Assembly (NCBI GenBank): GCA_016779125.1
Contig: JADHOF010000006.1
Span: 1-37,860, forward strand
Reading direction: 5' to 3'
Source: Verrucomicrobiia bacterium
GTDB lineage: Bacteria; Verrucomicrobiota; Verrucomicrobiia; Limisphaerales; JAYPXF01
Length of the DNA stretch: 37,860 nt
Below are positions 4,098-22,017 of this stretch, piece after piece (the first letter of the stretch is position 1; the number at the start of each line of letters is the position of its first letter). Below the pieces are notes generated by a model. The model was not told the origin of the DNA. It ran no database searches and worked only from the letters and a program-made list of their open reading frames with translations. Both the position numbers and the translations under genes were made by a program.

Positions 4098-4210
4098 TTA
4101 TCCTGAACTTTGTTCAAAATGCCGTGTAAGAATTGCGGGTTCGCGGTGAACTGTTCGTGCTTGGGGCATTTGAACTAAGAACTTCTGGAAACATCGAGTA
4201 TTACGACATC
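4098..4210. promoter_or_regulatory. Candidate regulatory region with GAAC/GTTC half-sites between ECF sigma and DUF1501 genes
   Basis: TGAACTTTGTTCA (4104-4116), GAACTGTTC (4148-4156), GAAC (4172-4175) and GAAC (4179-4182) lie between divergent genes. GAAC-type -35 elements are common for ECF sigma factors. Confidence 0.35.
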
Positions 4211-5644
4211 ATGAAACAAGATTGCGGCTATCATCCCGGAACGCGTTTGGATTCAGCGCCACTTTTTTCCTCCAGGCGCGACTTTTTGAATTCTGTTGGT
4301 ACCGGATTCGGTGCCTTGGCGCTGGCCAGTATCATGTATCCCGAGCTTGTTCGCGAGGCGGGAGCCCAATCGGCGGGCGGCATGCTTGCGCCGAAAGAGC
4401 CGCATTACCCTGGGACAGCCAAACGGGCCGTTCATATTTACCAGAGCGGGGCGCAAGCCCATCAGGACACGTGGGACTACAAGCCGGAGCTTGTAGCCTC
4501 GGCCGGCAAAGGCGCTGACCGCGGACGCAAGCTTCTCGCTCCGCAATTTGCCTTCTCGCCGAAGGGGCAGAGCGGCCTTCCCATGAGCGAGGTCTGGGAA
4601 AACCTTTCCACCCACGCGGACGATCTCGCGGTCATCAACTCGATGTATACCGACGCGCCCGCCCACGGCCCCGCGACACTGATTCAGACGACCGGTGATT
4701 TCAGGCTTCCGAAACCCTCCCTTGGATCATGGGTGGTCTACGGACTCGGTACGGAAAATCAGAACCTGCCGGCCTTTGTTGCAATGAATCCCGGCGGCTA
4801 TCCGGGCGAAGGAGCCAAGAACTGGCAATCGGCCTTCATGCCGGGAGCTTATCAGGGAACCTTTGTCGATCCGACCGCGACCGATATCGAGCGGGTCATT
4901 GAAAACATCCGCAACAAATTCACCACCGCCAGCGACCAGCGAAACCAGCTGGATCTGTTGAACAAGATCAACGAGCTCCACAAACAGAAGCGACAGGCGG
5001 AGGATCAGCTGGATGCTCGGATTCAGTCATACGAATTGGCCTACCGCATGCAGGCCGACGCGACGGAGGCCTTTGATGTGAGCCGCGAATCTGCGGACGT
5101 GCTGGAGAGATACGGTGCCACGGCCCCGGATCCGGCCCTCCGCGCGCAGGCGCGGCAGTTTATCATCGCCCGTCGTCTGCTGGAGCGTGGTGTCCGCTTC
5201 GTGCAGGTTTGGAACGGCGGTTGGGACACGCACAACAACGCGCGAGCGACCATTACCCGGAACGCGAGCCGGATCGACAAGCCGATCGCCGCGTTTATGA
5301 CGGACCTGAAGGATCGCGGCCTTTTCGAGGAAACGATCATCGCTTCGAGCACGGAGTTTGGCCGCAGTTCCACGGAAGACGGTCCGGGCGGACGTTCCCA
5401 CAACGCCAGGGCGTTTTCGAGCTGGCTGGCCGGTGGTGGAATCAAGGGCGGGCAGATCTACGGATCAACCGATGAGCTTGGCGCTGCGGCCGTCGACAAC
5501 AAGGTGCATGTGCACGAGTTGCATTCAACGATCCTGCACGCGCTGGGATTTGACTCCGAACGACTGACTTACCGAAACAGCGGACGTGATTTCCGGCTGA
5601 CGGACGTTTCCGGTGCGCAACCGGTCCGGTCCCTGTTCGCCTAG
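4211..5644 (+). CDS. DUF1501 domain-containing protein with Tat-like signal
   Basis: SSRRDFLNSVGTGFGALALAS Tat-like leader; DUF1501 features (HQDTWDYKPEL, RGVRFVQVWNGGWDTHNN, TEFGRSSTEDGPGGRSHN, HALGFDSERLTYRNSGRDFRLTDV). Confidence 0.9.
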   Translation: MKQDCGYHPGTRLDSAPLFSSRRDFLNSVGTGFGALALASIMYPELVREAGAQSAGGMLAPKEPHYPGTAKRAVHIYQSGAQAHQDTWDYKPELVASAGKGADRGRKLLAPQFAFSPKGQSGLPMSEVWENLSTHADDLAVINSMYTDAPAHGPATLIQTTGDFRLPKPSLGSWVVYGLGTENQNLPAFVAMNPGGYPGEGAKNWQSAFMPGAYQGTFVDPTATDIERVIENIRNKFTTASDQRNQLDLLNKINELHKQKRQAEDQLDARIQSYELAYRMQADATEAFDVSRESADVLERYGATAPDPALRAQARQFIIARRLLERGVRFVQVWNGGWDTHNNARATITRNASRIDKPIAAFMTDLKDRGLFEETIIASSTEFGRSSTEDGPGGRSHNARAFSSWLAGGGIKGGQIYGSTDELGAAAVDNKVHVHELHSTILHALGFDSERLTYRNSGRDFRLTDVSGAQPVRSLFA

Positions 5645-5660
5645 TTTGCGAGTGTTTACC

Positions 5661-5694
5661 GGCTCGCCCTTTCGGGGCGAGCCGCTTTTGTTTT
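5661..5694 (+). terminator. Intrinsic terminator-like hairpin between DUF1501 and PSCyt1/DUF1549/DUF1553 genes
   Basis: GGCTCGCCC-TTTCG-GGGCGAGCC (perfect 9-bp stem) followed by GCTTTTGTTTT, 17 nt after the DUF1501 stop codon. Confidence 0.75.
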
Positions 5695-5729
5695 GGTCCG
5701 CAAAATTTCGAAACGAAGAGCAGAGTGAT

Positions 5730-8700
5730 ATGAAGACACGTTTACCGATCATCATGGGGGCGCTGGTGTTGGCTTCGGCCCCGGTTTCAGCGCAGCAGGA
5801 ACAACCGCTGTCCCCGCAGGATCTGGAGTTTTTCGAGGCGAAGATCCGCCCGGCGCTGATTGAGCATTGCTACGATTGCCATAGCGCCGAGTCCAAGGTG
5901 AAGGGCGGACTTCAGGTGGACGGCAAGGTCGCGTTGCTCAAGGGGGGAACCTCGGGTGCCGCGATCATTCCCCGTCAGCCGAGCAAGAGTCTTTTCGTCA
6001 AGGCGATCCGTTACACGGATTCTGACATGCAGATGCCACCGGACGGGAAGCTGCCCGACAGTGTCATCGCAGACTTCGAGGAATGGATTCGGATGGGCGC
6101 GCCGGATCCCCGGGTCGGCAAGGCTGCGGCAGTGCTCAAATCCGATGCTGATCGTGAAAAAGCGAAGGAACACTGGGGTTTTCAGCCGATCGTGAAGCCC
6201 GCCGTGCCCGAACCGAAGACGAACATTCGTTCATGGGCGAAGAATGAAATCGACTACTTCATTCAGGCAAAGCTTGAGGAAAAGGGAATGGTGCCGTCCA
6301 TTCAGGCGGACAAATTGACCCTGATTCGGCGCGCCTATTTCGACCTGATCGGAATTCCCCCGAGCATGGAGCAGGTCAAGAACTTCATGGCCGACGATTC
6401 CCCGTCCGCTTACGAGAAGGTCATTGATGAACTCTTGAATTCCGAACATTACGGCGAACGCTGGGGGCGCTACTGGCTGGATGTCGCCCGTTACGCCGAC
6501 ACGCGCGGTGAACAAAACAACAACCGGATGGCCGATAACCGCCTGCTGCATGCTTGGACCTACCGGGACTGGGTGGTCAATGCGGTGAACAAGGACATGC
6601 CCTACGACAAGTTTCTTCAGTACCAGATCGCGGCAGATCTGATGTCCGGCGCGAAGCAGGAGGACTTGGCCGCTCTGGGATTTCTCTCCATCTATCGCGC
6701 GGTCAACAACAAGCAGGAGGTGATCGACGACCAGATCGACGTCGTCACGCGGGGCATGATGAGTCTCTCCGTTTACTGCGCCCGTTGCCACGACCACAAG
6801 TTTGATCCCGTCACCACCAAGGATTACTACGGCCTCTACGGGGTCTTCGACAGCATCAAGGTTTCGGAGAACAAACCCATCATCGAGGACATGACCGAGG
6901 TGCAGCAGCGCCCCGAGTATCAATCCTATCTTAACGAGAAGAGCCGGTTGTTGGCCGAGTTGAACGAGTTCCGCCGCGAGAAGCTGACCGAATACCTCGG
7001 CGATGCGAAGATGAACACGTCCCGCTATATGGTTTTCGCCCGCCTCATGGACGTTACGGATCAATTCAAACTGGCCAGCCGCGCTGATGAAGACATGTTC
7101 GAGGAGCGTTACGAGCTGGATGCCGACTTGGCGAAGAGTTGGAATCGTTTTCTCAAGGAAAAGAGCCGCAAACCCGATTCCGTCTTCACTCCGTGGCGCG
7201 ACTACATCGCGTTGAGTAGCACCAACTTTTTCAACGAGTCCAAGAAGCTGGCGAAAAAGTATTACTCCGATGGCAAGGCGGCGAAGGGGTTGAATGCCTA
7301 CGTGGCAAAAGCTTTCGCCAGTCCCGCCCGAGATCTGAATGACGTGGCGGCCCGCTACGCGTCCCTGTTTGCCAAGGGTGAGGAGGCTTGGGTCAACGCC
7401 CTCTCGCGAAACGCCCGCGAACGGGTCATCAAGAAGGACGAGGAAATCAAGGAGATCACCAAGCTTGAGGATTCTGACATGGAGGAGCTTCGGCAGGTTT
7501 ATTACGGCCGCAGGGCTCCGGCCAATGTTTCCTACAATCAGCTTGCCCGTAAGGACAACAACCGCATCGGCAATCAGGAACGCCGTTGGCACAACGACAT
7601 TGAGTTGTTGGAGATGAATCACCCGGGCTCACCGAAGCGGGCGATGTCCGTTGAAGATTTGCCGAGACCGCGGGAACCCCGTGTTTTTGCAAAGGGAGAT
7701 CCAAGCAAACCGGGTGACACCGTGCCGCGAAAGTTTATCGAAGTGTTGGAACCGAACGGAGGACGCTTTACCCGGGGCTCCGGTCGATTGGAGCTCGCCT
7801 ACAAGGTTGCCAGCGCGAAAAACCCGTTGACGGCACGGGTCGCGATGAACCGGGTGTGGATGAATCATTTTGGCGCACCCATCGTGAGAACTCCGACGGA
7901 CTTTGGCGTGCGTGCGGCCGAACCCACCCATCCCGAGCTGCTGGATTACCTGTCGGCCTGGTTCATCGAGCGGGGCTGGTCCATGAAGCGGGTTCATAAA
8001 TTCATCATGACCTCTGCGACCTACCAGCAGGCCAGCGACGTTCGGCCGAAATACATGGTGGAGGATTCTGCCAATATGACCTTTTGGCGCATGAACCGAC
8101 GGCGTCTCGATTTCGAGGGCTTCCGGGACTCCCTCCTGTCTGTCAGCGGCATGCTTGACGACACTGTGGGCGGTCCTCCTTACAATCCTCTGGAGATGCC
8201 GCTGATTCCCCGCCGAACGATGTATTCGTACATTGACCGGCGCAATCTGCCGGATGTGTTTCGGACTTTTGATTTCGCGAATCCGAACATGACGCAGGGT
8301 GAGCGCTTCAGTTCCACCGTGCCGCAACAGGCCTTGTACATGATGAACAGTCCCTTCGTCGCCGAGCTGGCCCGGAATGTCGTCGAGCGAGCGGACGTGA
8401 AGAGCAAGATCGACGAACGGCAGAAGATCGACGCGTTGTATGAGACCGCGTTCCAACGGAAGCCGTCGGAACTCGAAGTCCGGCTTGGGATGAACTTCCT
8501 CAAACAGCAGCAGGAGGTCGAGGCCGCCCGCAAACCCAGCCAGATTTGGGTCTATGGTTTTGGGCCTTACGATCCCGCCAAGAAGCGTCTGCTGCGTTTT
8601 ACCGAACTGCCTCACTACAGCATCTTGGATGGGGCCTATCAGGCCGCAGACACGTATCCGGATTCCCGTCTTGGCGCGCTTCGCGTGGGCGCGGACGGTG

Positions 8701-9239
8701 GCAGCCCAGGTCCGAATCGCAGCCTCGCGGCAATTCGCCGCTGGCGCTCCCCGATCAGCGGCACCGTTTCAATTGACGGAATTCTGGAACATCTCGGCAA
8801 TGAAGGTGACGGAATGGAAGCTTACATTGTGTTCAAGGAGCAGTTCGAAGTCGGGCGGTTTATTGCCTTCAATGGCGATCAACCCACCAAGGTTCCCAAG
8901 CTGCGTGTGGCGGCGGGCGACACCATCGATTTCGTCGTGAATTGCCGCGGAAACGATAATGGTGACGTCTTCTATTGGGCTCCGACGATCAAGGCGACCT
9001 CCGGGCAGAGCGACACGACGGGAGTAGTAGAAGCCTTTTTTGCCGGGGGCGGTGGGAACGGCGGAGGAATGGGTGGAATGGGCGGTGCCGCCGCTGCGGC
9101 TGCGGTTCGCAAGAACACTTGGAACGCTTCGCAGGATTTTTACGTGGAGCAGGAAGACGCGGCGCTTCGCATGCTGACCTCTTGGGAGAAGTTTGCCCAC
9201 GTGTTGCTGCTCTCGAACGAAATGATGTTCTTCGATTGA
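5730..9239 (+). CDS. PSCyt1/DUF1549/DUF1553 (PSD1-type) protein with a C-terminal beta-rich insertion and Gly/Ala-rich tract
   Basis: Signal peptide; PSCyt1 CYDCH haem motif ([22 protein letters not shown]); DUF1549 ([45 protein letters not shown]); DUF1553 ([18 protein letters not shown]...[13 protein letters not shown]). Start set at ATG 5730. Confidence 0.9.
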   Translation: [1169 protein letters not shown]

Positions 9240-12931: not shown

Positions 12932-13045
12932 GGGTGGGCGAAGATAGAAACAGGTTCCGCCGGTTAGAAGCAGAAACTCGAAGCGAAGCGTCCGGGAACG
13001 AGCATTGGACATTCGAAGGATGGCAGACCATGATTCGCCGGTCTT

Positions 13046-13735
13046 ATGGAAGACCTCCAGCCGACCATTTCACCCAGATCAAAGCCCTCTGACGCAGCTG
13101 CACGGGACCGTGCGAAGGGGCGCGTCGGGGACGCCTATCCGCGTATTCCCGGCATCAACGTACCCGCCGTGCTTTCCCGTTTGAATCTGTCCTGGGATGA
13201 ACTGCGGGATCGGTTACGGGATTTCTCGCTGAATCATGGACAATCCTTGGTCGAACTGCGCGGGGCCTTGGACGACGGCGACCATGCCGCAGCGCGTCGT
13301 CTGGCTGTGGAGATGGGGATTTCCGGCGCGAACTTTGGGGCCAGCGGATTGATGGAAAAAAGCCGGGCGCTCGAATTCGCCTTCCGGACGGGTGAAAAAT
13401 TCTATGAGCACCTCTATGACTCCTTGGAGATGGAGTTCAGCGGTCTGGTGGCCGGAGTGGAGCGTTTGAATGGCCAGGGCGCGATCGACGACGTGCGGGA
13501 TGTGATTCGTTCACTTTATGATTTTGCGGGACTTCGCGCCGCCTTTGACGATCTCCAGTCGCGCCTTCGAACAATGGAATGGATCGGGGCGGACGCGGCG
13601 TTGAAGCGCGTGCGCGAGCTGGGGATCCCGCCGGAAAGTCTGGAGGGCTTCCGAGAACTGGAGAAACTGGTTCGGGACCGATCGGCAGCCGACGCCCTCG
13701 AAATGACGGGTATCCTGAAACAAAACCTGGATTGA
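13046..13735 (+). CDS. Orphan HPt-like domain protein lacking the phospho-acceptor histidine (putative pseudo-HPt)
   Basis: Pattern of an HPt module as found at hybrid-kinase C-termini: IPGINVPAVLSRLNLSWDELRDRLRDFSLNHGQSLVELRGALDDGDHAAARRLAVEMGISGANFGASGLMEKSRALEFA, followed by the common C-terminal extension (LRAAFDDLQSRL...LEGFRELEKLVRDRSAADALEMTGIL). Confidence 0.6.
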   Translation: MEDLQPTISPRSKPSDAAARDRAKGRVGDAYPRIPGINVPAVLSRLNLSWDELRDRLRDFSLNHGQSLVELRGALDDGDHAAARRLAVEMGISGANFGASGLMEKSRALEFAFRTGEKFYEHLYDSLEMEFSGLVAGVERLNGQGAIDDVRDVIRSLYDFAGLRAAFDDLQSRLRTMEWIGADAALKRVRELGIPPESLEGFRELEKLVRDRSAADALEMTGILKQNLD

Positions 13736-13766
13736 TTTCCTCGGCCGCAATCGGCCCCGCCCCAAC

Positions 13767-14444
13767 ATGGTCACCGCAATTATCGTCGCCGCCGGCAAGG
13801 GCACCCGCATGGGGCCAAATGTGGACAAGCTCTTCCTCGAGGTTGCGGGACGACCGATTGTCGCTCACACGTGGGAGCGGTTTGATCGCTCGCCGAGCGT
13901 GGATGAGATCGTCCTCGTGGTCCGAGAGGGAATGCAGGCGGAATTTGAGGAGCTGGCGGGAGTGAACGGGTTTACCAAGCAATACCGAATGGTCGCCGGA
14001 GGGAAGGAGAGGCAGGACTCGGTGTGGAACGGAATACAGGCGGCGAATCCGTCCGCGGAGATCATAGCCATCCATGACGGAGCCCGCCCCTGCGTGACCG
14101 AGACGATCATTGCCGATTGTGTGCGCGCCGCGCGTGAACACGGAGCGGCGGTCGCGGCGTCCTCGGTGACCGACACGATCAAGGAAGCGACGGCGGACGG
14201 CCTGATCTCCCGGCATATCGATCGCTCCAAGCTGCGCGCGGTGCAGACGCCCCAGACGTTTCGAGCCGAGATTATTCGGAGTGCTTTGGGAGAGGCGCAG
14301 GCCCGGGGCATCGCGGTGACGGACGACACGGCTGCCTGCGACCTGATCGGCCAGACCGTTCGCCTGGTTGAGAGTGCGACGCCGAATCCAAAGGCGACTG
14401 CGCCTTCCGATATTCCGTGGCTGGAACTTCTGTTGAAGGCCTGA
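13767..14444 (+). CDS. ispD: 2-C-methyl-D-erythritol 4-phosphate cytidylyltransferase
   Basis: VTAIIVAAGKGTRMG, VVAGGKERQDSVWNG-like (MVAGGKERQDSVWNGI), IHDGARPCV, DTIKEA, RAVQTPQTFRAEII, TDDTAACDLIG. Confidence 0.93.
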   Translation: MVTAIIVAAGKGTRMGPNVDKLFLEVAGRPIVAHTWERFDRSPSVDEIVLVVREGMQAEFEELAGVNGFTKQYRMVAGGKERQDSVWNGIQAANPSAEIIAIHDGARPCVTETIIADCVRAAREHGAAVAASSVTDTIKEATADGLISRHIDRSKLRAVQTPQTFRAEIIRSALGEAQARGIAVTDDTAACDLIGQTVRLVESATPNPKATAPSDIPWLELLLKA

Positions 14445-14466
14445 CGGCGTGAGATCCGTTTCTGAA

Positions 14467-14497
14467 CCGGTTCCGGCCAAAAGCCGGTGGAAACCGG
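14467..14497. other. Imperfect hairpin in the ispD-Gfo/Idh intergenic region
   Basis: CCGGTT-CCGGC-CAAAA-GCCGG-TGGA-AACCGG: nested arms with a 3' bulge; no strong U tract. Confidence 0.4.
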
Positions 14498-14545
14498 GAT
14501 TTGCTCCGCGTGCGGACCGCCGCAAGCACTGGTGAATCTCGGTCG

Positions 14546-14574
14546 TTGACACTCCGTCTGATTCGCGAAATACA
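14546..14574 (+). promoter_or_regulatory. Candidate sigma70-like promoter for the Gfo/Idh/MocA gene
   Basis: TTGACA at 14546-14551, 17-bp spacer, AATACA at 14569-14574; the ATG at 14583 lies 8 nt past the -10. Confidence 0.3.
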
Positions 14575-14582
14575 TACGCCCC

Positions 14583-16034
14583 ATGAACGAATCCCCATTG
14601 TCTTCCAACACGCGCCGCGATTTTTTGAAAACCACCGGAGCTGTCACGGCGGCTGGCGCGCTGACAGGCGTGACGCTGCCCAAGGTGCATGCCGCGCATG
14701 ACGACACGATCAAGATTGGTCTGGTCGGTTGCGGTGGACGGGGGACCGGCGCGGTGCAGAACGCGCTCAATCTTTCCGCCGCCTTCGGCCCCATCAAGCT
14801 GGTCGGCATGGCGGATGTTTTCGACAGCCACATTGACAGCAAGCACAAGGCGTTGGAGCGGAAGTTCAAGGACAAGATGGACGTCCCGCCGGAACGTCGT
14901 TTTGTCAGCTTCGACGGCTACAAGAACGTGATCGACTCCGTCGGCAAGGGCGGCGTCGCGATCTTCACGACACCCTGCGCCTTCCGTTGGGTGCATTACC
15001 AATACGCGATCGAGCGGGGCGTCAACGTGTTCATGGAAAAGCCCGTCTGCCCGGACGCGCCGTCGGGGCGGAAGATGCTGGAGCTGAACGAGCTGGCGAT
15101 GAAGAAGAACCTGAAGGTCGGTGTCGGCCTGATGGTGCGCCACTGCCGCGGCCGGCGTGAATTGTGGAATCGTATTCAGGATGGGCAGATCGGCGAGATC
15201 ACCATGATGCGTGCCTACCGGATGGCCGGGAAGATCGCCTCCTTCAGTTCCAAATATCAGGTGGACGAGCCCGAATATCAGGAATGGTCCGAAACCCTTT
15301 ATCAGATCAAGCGCTTCCATAGCTTTCTGTGGCTCAGCGGCGGCGCGTTCAGCGATTACAACATCCATCAGATCGACGAGTGCTCCTGGATGAAGAACGA
15401 CTGGCCGATCGAGGCGCACGCGGTCGGCGGTCGGCATTACAAGACCGACATCAAGGACGGCAAGGAATGGGCGGACCAGAACTTCGACAGCTACGGCGTC
15501 GAGTACACCTACCCGGACGGAACGAAACTGATGTTCGACGGACGCAACATCATGGGCTGCTCGAACGAGATGGCCAGCTACGTCCACGGCACCAAGGGGT
15601 CCGGTGTGGTCTCCATGGGCGGACACACCCCGGGCAAAGTTCGACTTTTCAAGGATCACCACGTTTCCAAGAACGATCGCGCCGACAATATCCTGTGGGC
15701 CTACCCGCAGCCGGAGGCCAATCCATACGATTTGGAATGGGAAGACCTGATCAACGCCATTCGCAACGACGAGCCCTACAACGAGGTCGAACGCGGCGTG
15801 CGCGCCTCCATGGTCACGGCGATGGGCCGATTCGCGGCCCACACCGGCAAGATCACCCGCTGGGACGACTACAAGAACAACGATTTCTTCATGTCGCCGA
15901 ACGCCGACAAGATCACCTTCGACGGCCCCTCGCCGCTCCAACTCGATCCGGACGGCCGCTATCCGAAACCGATGCCGGGTGTCTTCTCCAAGGAAGAATA
16001 TCGGGCCAAGGTCGCTCCGAAGAAGGAGGCCTGA
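14583..16034 (+). CDS. Gfo/Idh/MocA family oxidoreductase with Tat signal
   Basis: NTRRDFLKTTGAVTAAGALTG Tat leader; IKIGLVGCGGRGTGAV nucleotide-binding motif; VNVFMEKPVC (EKP motif). Confidence 0.92.
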   Translation: MNESPLSSNTRRDFLKTTGAVTAAGALTGVTLPKVHAAHDDTIKIGLVGCGGRGTGAVQNALNLSAAFGPIKLVGMADVFDSHIDSKHKALERKFKDKMDVPPERRFVSFDGYKNVIDSVGKGGVAIFTTPCAFRWVHYQYAIERGVNVFMEKPVCPDAPSGRKMLELNELAMKKNLKVGVGLMVRHCRGRRELWNRIQDGQIGEITMMRAYRMAGKIASFSSKYQVDEPEYQEWSETLYQIKRFHSFLWLSGGAFSDYNIHQIDECSWMKNDWPIEAHAVGGRHYKTDIKDGKEWADQNFDSYGVEYTYPDGTKLMFDGRNIMGCSNEMASYVHGTKGSGVVSMGGHTPGKVRLFKDHHVSKNDRADNILWAYPQPEANPYDLEWEDLINAIRNDEPYNEVERGVRASMVTAMGRFAAHTGKITRWDDYKNNDFFMSPNADKITFDGPSPLQLDPDGRYPKPMPGVFSKEEYRAKVAPKKEA

Positions 16035-16055
16035 GCAGCGCCATCTCTTATCCCG

Positions 16056-16090
16056 AAAGGCCGGGCATTTCGCCCGGCCTTTCTTTTTCT
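16056..16090 (+). terminator. Intrinsic terminator downstream of the Gfo/Idh/MocA gene
   Basis: AAAGGCCGGGC-ATTTC-GCCCGGCCTTT followed by CTTTTTCT. Confidence 0.85.
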
Positions 16091-16115
16091 CCACCTTCAC
16101 TCCCACCATTGCCAC

Positions 16116-17207
16116 GTGACCGCCGCCGACTTTGAAGCATTGACCTCCCTCGGTTGGGACTCCGGTCGAGCGGAGGAATTTGCCGAGCTTGAAGCGGGCG
16201 AAGAGCTTGTGCCCGCGCGGGTGTCGATGGAGACCAAGCTTAACTACCTCGTCTGGACTGCGGACGCGGAGCTTCCGGCGAAGGTGACAGGCAGGTTGTT
16301 GCATGACACGAAGCGCGATCCCTTGCGGCGGCCGAAAGTCGGCGATTGGGTGGGGGTGACCTTCGCTGACGGGGGCGAAAAGGTGCAGATCCGTCAGATG
16401 CTGCCCAGACGCACCCAGCTGACCCGCAAGGTGGTGGGGCGGCGGAATGAGGGGCAGGTCGTGGCGGCGAACATTGACACCGTCTTCGTCATGCAGGGGC
16501 TGGATGACAATTTCAACCTGCGTCGTCTCGAACGCTGCCTCGTGATGGTGCATGAGGGCGGGGCGGAACCAGTCGTGTTGTTGAACAAGGCGGATCTGCA
16601 CGAGGACGCGGCGGGGGTGGCCCGCGAGGCGGCCGTGGCGGCAGGAGACTCGCCGGTGGTGTGTGTGTCGGCGGTCACGGGGGCAGGGATTTCGGGGTTG
16701 AAGCGCTGGCTTAGGCCGGGGCGCACGGTTGCGTTTATCGGCTCTTCGGGAGTCGGTAAATCGACCCTGCTCAACCGCCTGCACGGTGAGGAACTACAGG
16801 AGACCGGCGAGGTGCGGGAGCGGGATTCAAAGGGACGGCACACGACGGTCCGCCGAGAACTCTTTTTTCTCGGAGACCAGGGGCTGGTGATCGACACGCC
16901 GGGCATGAGGGAATTTCATCTTTGGTTTGCCGCCGACGGACTGGACGCCGCGTTTGCCGATATTGAAGCGTTTGCGCGGACTTGCCGATTTGGTGATTGT
17001 TCGCATTCGAGCGAGCCGGACTGCGCCGTGCTGGCGGCGGTGGCCGAGGGGAGACTGGCCGAGGAGCGGCACCGCAACTTTCTCCGTCTACAGGCCGATC
17101 TGGCGAAGCTGGATAAAAATTACGAGCGACGCATGTGGCGGGACAAGGCATCCGGTTCCTTTTCCCCGGCGAGGGCACCGCGTCCGTTCAAACGCGGTGG
17201 ACGATGA
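16116..17207 (+). CDS. rsgA: Ribosome small-subunit-dependent GTPase A (GTG start)
   Basis: Circularly permuted GTPase order: NKADL, then GSSGVGKSTLLNRL, then DTPGMREF; zinc motif CRFGDCSHSSEPDCAV. Confidence 0.95.
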   Translation: MTAADFEALTSLGWDSGRAEEFAELEAGEELVPARVSMETKLNYLVWTADAELPAKVTGRLLHDTKRDPLRRPKVGDWVGVTFADGGEKVQIRQMLPRRTQLTRKVVGRRNEGQVVAANIDTVFVMQGLDDNFNLRRLERCLVMVHEGGAEPVVLLNKADLHEDAAGVAREAAVAAGDSPVVCVSAVTGAGISGLKRWLRPGRTVAFIGSSGVGKSTLLNRLHGEELQETGEVRERDSKGRHTTVRRELFFLGDQGLVIDTPGMREFHLWFAADGLDAAFADIEAFARTCRFGDCSHSSEPDCAVLAAVAEGRLAEERHRNFLRLQADLAKLDKNYERRMWRDKASGSFSPARAPRPFKRGGR

Positions 17208-20085: not shown

Positions 20086-22017
20086 ATGAAAACCCTTCTG
20101 ATCATTTTCGCCGCCCTGTTGGTTCACGACACTGTCGCCTCGGATCATTGGGCCTTTCAACCCGTCCGACGTCCCGAGGTGCCGGTGGTCGCCGGATTGG
20201 TTTCCGAAGCCAATCCGATCGACGCGTTCATCCTTCGCCAGCTTGGGGAGGCGGGAATGGGATTCGCTCCCGAGGCGACGGCGGAACGCCTCATACGGAG
20301 AATGGCCTTGGATCTGATCGGCCTGCCGCCCAAGCCCGACGAGGTGGAAGTTTTCGTAAAAGCCTTTTCATCCGACCCGGAAAGAGCCTGTTCCGCGCTG
20401 ATCGACCGGCTGTTGGAGTCGCCTCACTATGGCGAACGCTGGGGACGTCATTGGCTGGACGTGGCGCGCTTCGCGGAGACGGACGGATTCGAACACGACG
20501 CGGTGCGACCGCACGCCTGGCGATACCGCGACTACGTGATCCGCTCGTACAATGACGACAAACCCTACGACCGATTCATTTGTGAACAGGTTGCGGGAGA
20601 CGTGCTTTGGCCGGATGAGCCGCAGGCCCGGATCGCCACCGGATTCAATCTGCTTGGCCCGGACATGGTGGACTCGGCCGATCAGGAGCAGCGCCGTCTG
20701 AACCGCTTGACCGACATGACGGATACGACGGCCCTCGCGTTTGTCGGCCTGACGATGGGTTGCGCCAAGTGTCACGATCATCCCTTCGAACCGATCACCC
20801 AGCGGGAGTACTACGGACTACAGGCCTTTTACACGCCCTTGGATTTCAACGATGCCGCGCCGGTTTACACCCCCGCCGAGTTGAGTTCCCACAAGATGGA
20901 TCTGGCGCGTTACGAAAGCCGGGCCGAGGTGGTGGCCCTCGCGGCGTTTGACATGGAACACCGGCCTGCGGGCAGGAAACTCAGCCACAAGGCCTATTTG
21001 AAAACGCTCTCCAAGGATGAGAAGGCCGCGCGGGACAAGCTTGAAGAGTCGGCCCGTCGGTACAAGCGGCCGGAACTTCCCGCCGCCTTGACGGTGTCCT
21101 ATCCGTCCGGCCCGTGGCGTAAGACTCGCCTGTTGAACCGCGGTGAATACTCGCAGCCCCGGGAAGTGGTGCCGCCGGGCTTTCCAAAGATTGTCCCGGG
21201 CGATGAAACGCGACCCAAGGATCGACGCGATCTGGCCGCATGGTTGACCGATCCCGGCAATCCGTTGACAGCGCGCGTGATGGTGAACCGGGTCTGGCGG
21301 CAGCATTTCGGCCGAGGACTTGTCGCGACACCGAGCGATTTTGGTGTGACCAGCAAAGCTCCGACGCATCCGGAACTGCTTGACTGGCTCGCCTCGGAGT
21401 TTGTGCGCGATGGCTGGAGTCTGAAGGCGCTGCATCGTTTGATTCTTTCGTCGAAGACATGGCGTCAGGCGGTGGTGGATTCGCCCGATCGTCTTCTTTA
21501 TCGCGGATGGTTGCCGAAGCGTTTGGAGGGCGAGGTCATCCGGGATTCCCTGCTCGAGATCAGCGGGCGTTTGAATCCCGCGATGTACGGTCCCGGCGTG
21601 ATGCCGCCGATTCCGGCGGAGGTGTTCAAAGGTGCCTCGGGCTGGTCGCCCAGCAAGGATTCGGCGGACCACGGGCGGCGCAGCATTTACATCTTCGCGC
21701 GGCGGAACCTGCGCTTTCCCTTTCTGGAAGTCTTCGACGCGCCGGACAGCAACCTGAGCTGCTCGGCGCGACAGGAGAGCACCACCGCGCCCCAGTCGCT
21801 GACCCTGCTCAACGCCGCAGATGTGGTGGAAGCCGCGCGGCAGGTTGCCGAATCTCTCCCGAAGAACACGATCGTGGCTTCGGCCTATCGGCGAATTCTC
21901 GGACGTGATCCGAGCGCCGAGGAGGCGGATCTTGCTGAGAGGTTTCTTCAGCGTTCGCCCGCGAAGGAGCTTTGCCGGGCCTTGTTCAATCTCAACGAGT
22001 TCGTCTATGCGTACTGA
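20086..22017 (+). CDS. DUF1549/DUF1553 protein lacking an N-terminal PSCyt1 domain
   Basis: Signal peptide directly followed by DHWAFQPVRRPEVP; DUF1549 (YGERWGRHWLDVARFAETDG; GCAKCHDHPFEPITQREYYGLQ); DUF1553 (NPLTARVMVNRVWRQHFGRGLVATPSDFG). Confidence 0.9.
   Translation: MKTLLIIFAALLVHDTVASDHWAFQPVRRPEVPVVAGLVSEANPIDAFILRQLGEAGMGFAPEATAERLIRRMALDLIGLPPKPDEVEVFVKAFSSDPERACSALIDRLLESPHYGERWGRHWLDVARFAETDGFEHDAVRPHAWRYRDYVIRSYNDDKPYDRFICEQVAGDVLWPDEPQARIATGFNLLGPDMVDSADQEQRRLNRLTDMTDTTALAFVGLTMGCAKCHDHPFEPITQREYYGLQAFYTPLDFNDAAPVYTPAELSSHKMDLARYESRAEVVALAAFDMEHRPAGRKLSHKAYLKTLSKDEKAARDKLEESARRYKRPELPAALTVSYPSGPWRKTRLLNRGEYSQPREVVPPGFPKIVPGDETRPKDRRDLAAWLTDPGNPLTARVMVNRVWRQHFGRGLVATPSDFGVTSKAPTHPELLDWLASEFVRDGWSLKALHRLILSSKTWRQAVVDSPDRLLYRGWLPKRLEGEVIRDSLLEISGRLNPAMYGPGVMPPIPAEVFKGASGWSPSKDSADHGRRSIYIFARRNLRFPFLEVFDAPDSNLSCSARQESTTAPQSLTLLNAADVVEAARQVAESLPKNTIVASAYRRILGRDPSAEEADLAERFLQRSPAKELCRALFNLNEFVYAY

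Follow-up and report, generated by a model that had tools for sequence, protein, structure and literature searches.

A free-standing HPt-like protein without the phospho-acceptor histidine, encoded beside ispD in a Verrucomicrobiia bacterium

The gene and its neighbourhood

The window analyzed here is the whole 37,860-nucleotide stretch presented above. It derives from one draft assembly (81% complete), and the valine variant described below is seen in that single genome. Between leuB and ispD lies an open reading frame for a protein of 229 residues, and both the frame and the residues quoted for it in a first-pass annotation, made from the DNA letters, were confirmed in the sequence. The product is referred to here as a pseudo-HPt protein, that is, one with the HPt fold and without the acceptor histidine. 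The features of the region are as follows.

13046..13735, forward strand: gene for the standalone pseudo-HPt protein, 229 aa (open reading frame, in-frame codon use, homology to hybrid-kinase C-termini)
13046..13138, forward strand: N-terminal 31 residues, predicted to be disordered (pLDDT <50 for residues 1-29) and equivalent in the alignment to the REC-HPt linker of kinases
13160..13471, forward strand: HPt-like helical bundle, residues 39-142 (AF2 helices 39-46, 50-76, 80-96, 100-115 and 121-142; Foldseek)
13301..13339, forward strand: eroded phospho-acceptor hairpin, residues 86-98 (LAVEMGISGANFG), with 2 of 11 family-conserved residues kept
13307..13309, forward strand: GTG codon for Val88 in the column of the phospho-acceptor histidine (column alignment, codon comparison)
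13523..13732, forward strand: C-terminal four-helix extension, residues 160-229, shared with hybrid kinases (homology; pLDDT about 80-95)
13767..14444, forward strand: ispD (Pfam IspD), beginning 31 bp downstream of the pseudo-HPt gene and probably co-transcribed with it

No stop codon interrupts the 229-codon frame, and its composition is of the coding type. The codon score is 0.18 in its own frame, whereas the five alternative frames score -0.12 to -0.63, and GC content by codon position (0.69/0.44/0.67) is broadly similar to that of the neighbouring genes. Synonymous codon bias is 0.16, the lowest among the genes compared (the others range from 0.21 to 0.41), and inspection by eye of the sequence upstream of the ATG revealed no clear ribosome-binding site.

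The gene had been described as encoded alone, and this is true in part: Pfam scans of the ten neighbouring ORFs found neither a kinase nor a receiver, but the gene is hardly isolated, as a gap of 31 bp separates its end from ispD, which runs in the same direction. This short interval, together with the 114 bp that separate it from the probable start of leuB (12931, read from the sequence), suggests that it probably belongs to an ispD transcription unit. A weak promoter-like match is present at 13006-13034. Conservation of the leuB-ispD locus, proposed earlier as a check, was not borne out, for neither leuB nor a pseudo-HPt gene occurs within the 1.5 kb flanks of ispD at any of 29 other loci. 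The order recJ-ispD-S41 protease is common in many relatives; in the source genome recJ is on a different contig.

Several other features of the window may be recorded. A 1115-aa open frame on the reverse strand (13437-16784) runs antisense to ispD, a Gfo/Idh-type gene and rsgA, and looks like a by-product of opposite-strand codon bias rather than a gene. Two PSCyt2/PSD1 (DUF1549/DUF1553) proteins, of families of unknown function, are encoded at 5613-9239 and 20086-22017, the first adjoined by a DUF1501 gene (4133-5644).

Orthologs of the pseudo-HPt protein were absent from about 1,150 genome scans (in overlapping sets) and from the sole same-genus genome examined (92% complete). A scan of a contig collection with the protein alone returned zero relatives, and one with the family alignment returned four loci, namely two kinase families already known from the other searches and two Magnetococcales proteins.

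Homology to hybrid kinases and predicted fold

Over about 190 residues the protein is homologous, at 26-31% identity, to the C-termini of hybrid histidine kinases from related Verrucomicrobiota. The homology runs through the HPt domain and on through the C-terminal helical extension, bearing out the initial description of an HPt-like protein with an extension known from hybrid kinases. One relative is a 1216-aa hybrid kinase of a same-family genome, whose own HPt is a Pfam match; this kinase and a second one from that genome are 30% and 28% identical to the query (E=5e-20 and 1e-18), and further kinase relatives occur in genomes of the same order and class. Four relatives that were scanned carry HisKA, HATPase, two receivers and HPt above the Pfam cut-off, in the order HisKA-HATPase-REC-REC-HPt; another, L060, sits at a contig end, its full architecture extending beyond view. 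Among the loci collected, L053 (CAMDGV010000097.1) is labelled Akkermansia muciniphila, and its match equals that of genome G191, of the same order as the source, so this species name is possibly mistaken.

HisKA, HATPase and receiver domains are all absent from the 229-aa ORF, which is therefore not itself a hybrid histidine kinase, and no receiver remnant was recognised in its N-terminal 31 residues. The Pfam scan of the protein gave no match, and those against NCBIfam and PHROG were uninformative. A single-sequence search of the PDB was weak (7c1i, HptB, E=0.26), and the five-sequence family profile matches HptB of P. aeruginosa at 2.5e-6; homology to HPt domains is thus drawn through this profile match and through kinase C-termini that score above the Pfam cut-off. 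Weak CutC-like matches were rejected as chance hits on a helical protein. In a tree, the protein groups weakly with the same-family kinases (82/77), and its own branch is very long, at 3.8 changes per column; we therefore do not claim descent from that kinase lineage in particular. The branch length is compatible with relaxed constraint.

An AF2 model built from a five-row alignment has a mean pLDDT of 79, with the HPt region and the extension mostly at 75-95. Its top PDB match by Foldseek is HptB (7c1i), with a TM-score of 0.83 on the target, an rmsd of 2.0 and a probability of 1.00; as the E-value is only 0.035, assignment of the HPt fold rests on the TM-score together with the homology. The next PDB matches are other HPts. 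The model suggested earlier as a check for a four-helix HPt bundle does, then, predict such a bundle.

The eroded acceptor site

Replacement of the phospho-acceptor histidine by valine, noted at the outset, is confirmed in the alignments, in which Val88 occupies a column that is His in all 14 relatives (two of them, from Magnetococcales, near-identical). A functional HPt phosphotransferase has a conserved histidine at this position, and it is present in each of the ten HPt domains that Pfam detects in this genome. One weak own-genome HPt match, L016, seemed odd at first and proved to have the histidine, in the motif LHELCGKAG. Also in this genome, a hybrid-kinase frame (G000:C129, L071) and an HPt frame (G000:C80, L015) each contain one in-frame TGA, and are possibly decaying genes or assembly errors.

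The valine codon GTG is three base changes from either histidine codon (CAT or CAC), which excludes a sequencing error or single mutation as the sole cause. The annotation had listed loss of the histidine and of the following Lys-Gly; the loss of His and Gly holds, but that of Lys is not peculiar to this protein, since Ala or Gly stands at that position in its closest relatives among the kinases (AHSIAG/AHSIGG). The losses particular to the pseudo-HPt protein are those at His88, Ser89 and Gly92. When conserved positions are defined as the 58 columns with the same residue in 7 or more of 9 kinases, 2 of 11 are kept within residues 86-98, as against 30 of 47 in the remainder of the protein (Fisher p=0.008, only indicative because the boundary was picked after the alignment was viewed). 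Retention of the fold with loss of the active site is the pattern of a pseudoenzyme.

Possible roles and comparison with known systems

The sequence comparisons and the model support a putative origin of the protein as the detached HPt domain and C-terminal extension of a hybrid kinase, with the acceptor histidine lost. On an HPt bundle, receiver domains dock next to the acceptor histidine. The end of a kinase, once detached as a free-standing soluble protein, may have lost its phosphate-accepting site and retained its bundle; most likely this bundle would bind a receiver, of a hybrid kinase or of a response regulator, without accepting phosphate, and would so compete, or serve as an adaptor, within a phosphorelay. 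In functional terms, a decoy or scaffold that cannot be phosphorylated is the reading that fits best, and we infer receiver binding, the competitor or adaptor role and co-transcription with ispD. Numerous hybrid kinases and receivers in the genome are candidate partners, the kinases nearest by homology being C5 and C199; that no two-component gene adjoins the pseudo-HPt gene counts against the explanation. We put the probability that the protein is a free-standing pseudo-HPt of this origin, fold kept and site lost, which binds a receiver as competitor or adaptor, at roughly 0.55. A narrower version, in which a detached kinase end within an ispD transcription unit sequesters receivers in the manner of AHP6 and so sets the threshold of a phosphorelay, is offered only tentatively.

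The first-pass annotation also allowed for a relic of a hybrid kinase, an option now disfavoured by the open frame, the coding composition and the keeping of fold residues while the active site was lost. An old neutral relic is unlikely, given the coding-type composition and the lack of stops. Simulations of neutral drift, started from the kinase end of genome G002 and ignoring indels, point the same way, since 1.2% of runs kept the frame open at 45% identity and 0.4% did so at 24% identity, and drift thus seldom leaves an open frame. An open coding frame and losses concentrated at one site tend to favour maintenance by selection. A relic that lost its function recently and whose frame is open by chance would fit the long branch, the lowest codon bias of the genes compared, the rearranged locus and the lack of an ortholog in the same-genus genome; against it stand 229 codons of coding-type composition without a stop, the retention of the extension and fold residues beside an eroded active site, and the rarity of open frames after drift to such divergence, and we regard it as rather improbable.

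Another proposal, that the HPt fold now serves to bind proteins outside phosphorelays, perhaps in connection with the neighbouring ispD, draws on the position of ispD 31 bp downstream on the same strand, on the absence of two-component genes nearby and on the active-site surface being the most changed part of the protein. The pairing with ispD recurs at 0 of 29 other ispD loci, however, and recJ-ispD-S41 protease is the common order; the proposal is doubtful. That a different residue, such as His64 or His80, still carries the phosphate is highly improbable and was rejected: both lie inside the bundle, but neither is at the helix acceptor position, and the same residues occur in relatives that keep the canonical histidine (His64 in L056, His80 in L058 and L054), so they are not replacements.

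A detached, histidine-less HPt, the preferred reading, may be set beside several known proteins. Plant pseudo-HPts are familiar, and FimL is a comparable bacterial case. One likeness is to the C-terminal hybrid-kinase HPt (PF01627) of Verrucomicrobiota, with homology over the HPt and the helical extension at 26-31% identity; the pseudo-HPt protein differs in being free-standing, without kinase or receiver part, and in having lost the acceptor histidine and surrounding motif. HptB of P. aeruginosa (7c1i) is likewise standalone and shares the fold (TM 0.83, rmsd 2.0), but has the acceptor histidine and lacks the extension. In the literature on degenerate or His-lacking bacterial HPts, a search of which returned mostly plant papers, no detached hybrid-kinase HPt of comparable sort was found.

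FimL of P. aeruginosa, which works together with the chemotaxis-like Chp system, has two HPt-like domains, each with Gln in place of the acceptor histidine. Canonical phosphate transfer by FimL is considered unlikely, and its action is thought to be through binding (PMC3019171). The resemblance, that of a bacterial HPt-like protein without the acceptor histidine, is one of kind and does not imply kinship, and the two HPt-like domains and the role with the Chp system set FimL apart. AHP6 of Arabidopsis is a standalone pseudophosphotransfer protein without the histidine and a proposed competitor of functional HPts (PMC2478664). It too is a standalone HPt-type protein lacking the histidine, with no relatedness implied, but it comes from a plant and its phenotype and pathway are known. 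The example described here, so far restricted to one species, is of small scope and not a widespread system. To our knowledge, AHP6 has no C-terminal extension of the pseudo-HPt type. If the bacterial protein does bind receivers, it would show that a phosphorelay can come under the control of one of its own domains in a detached and inactivated copy.
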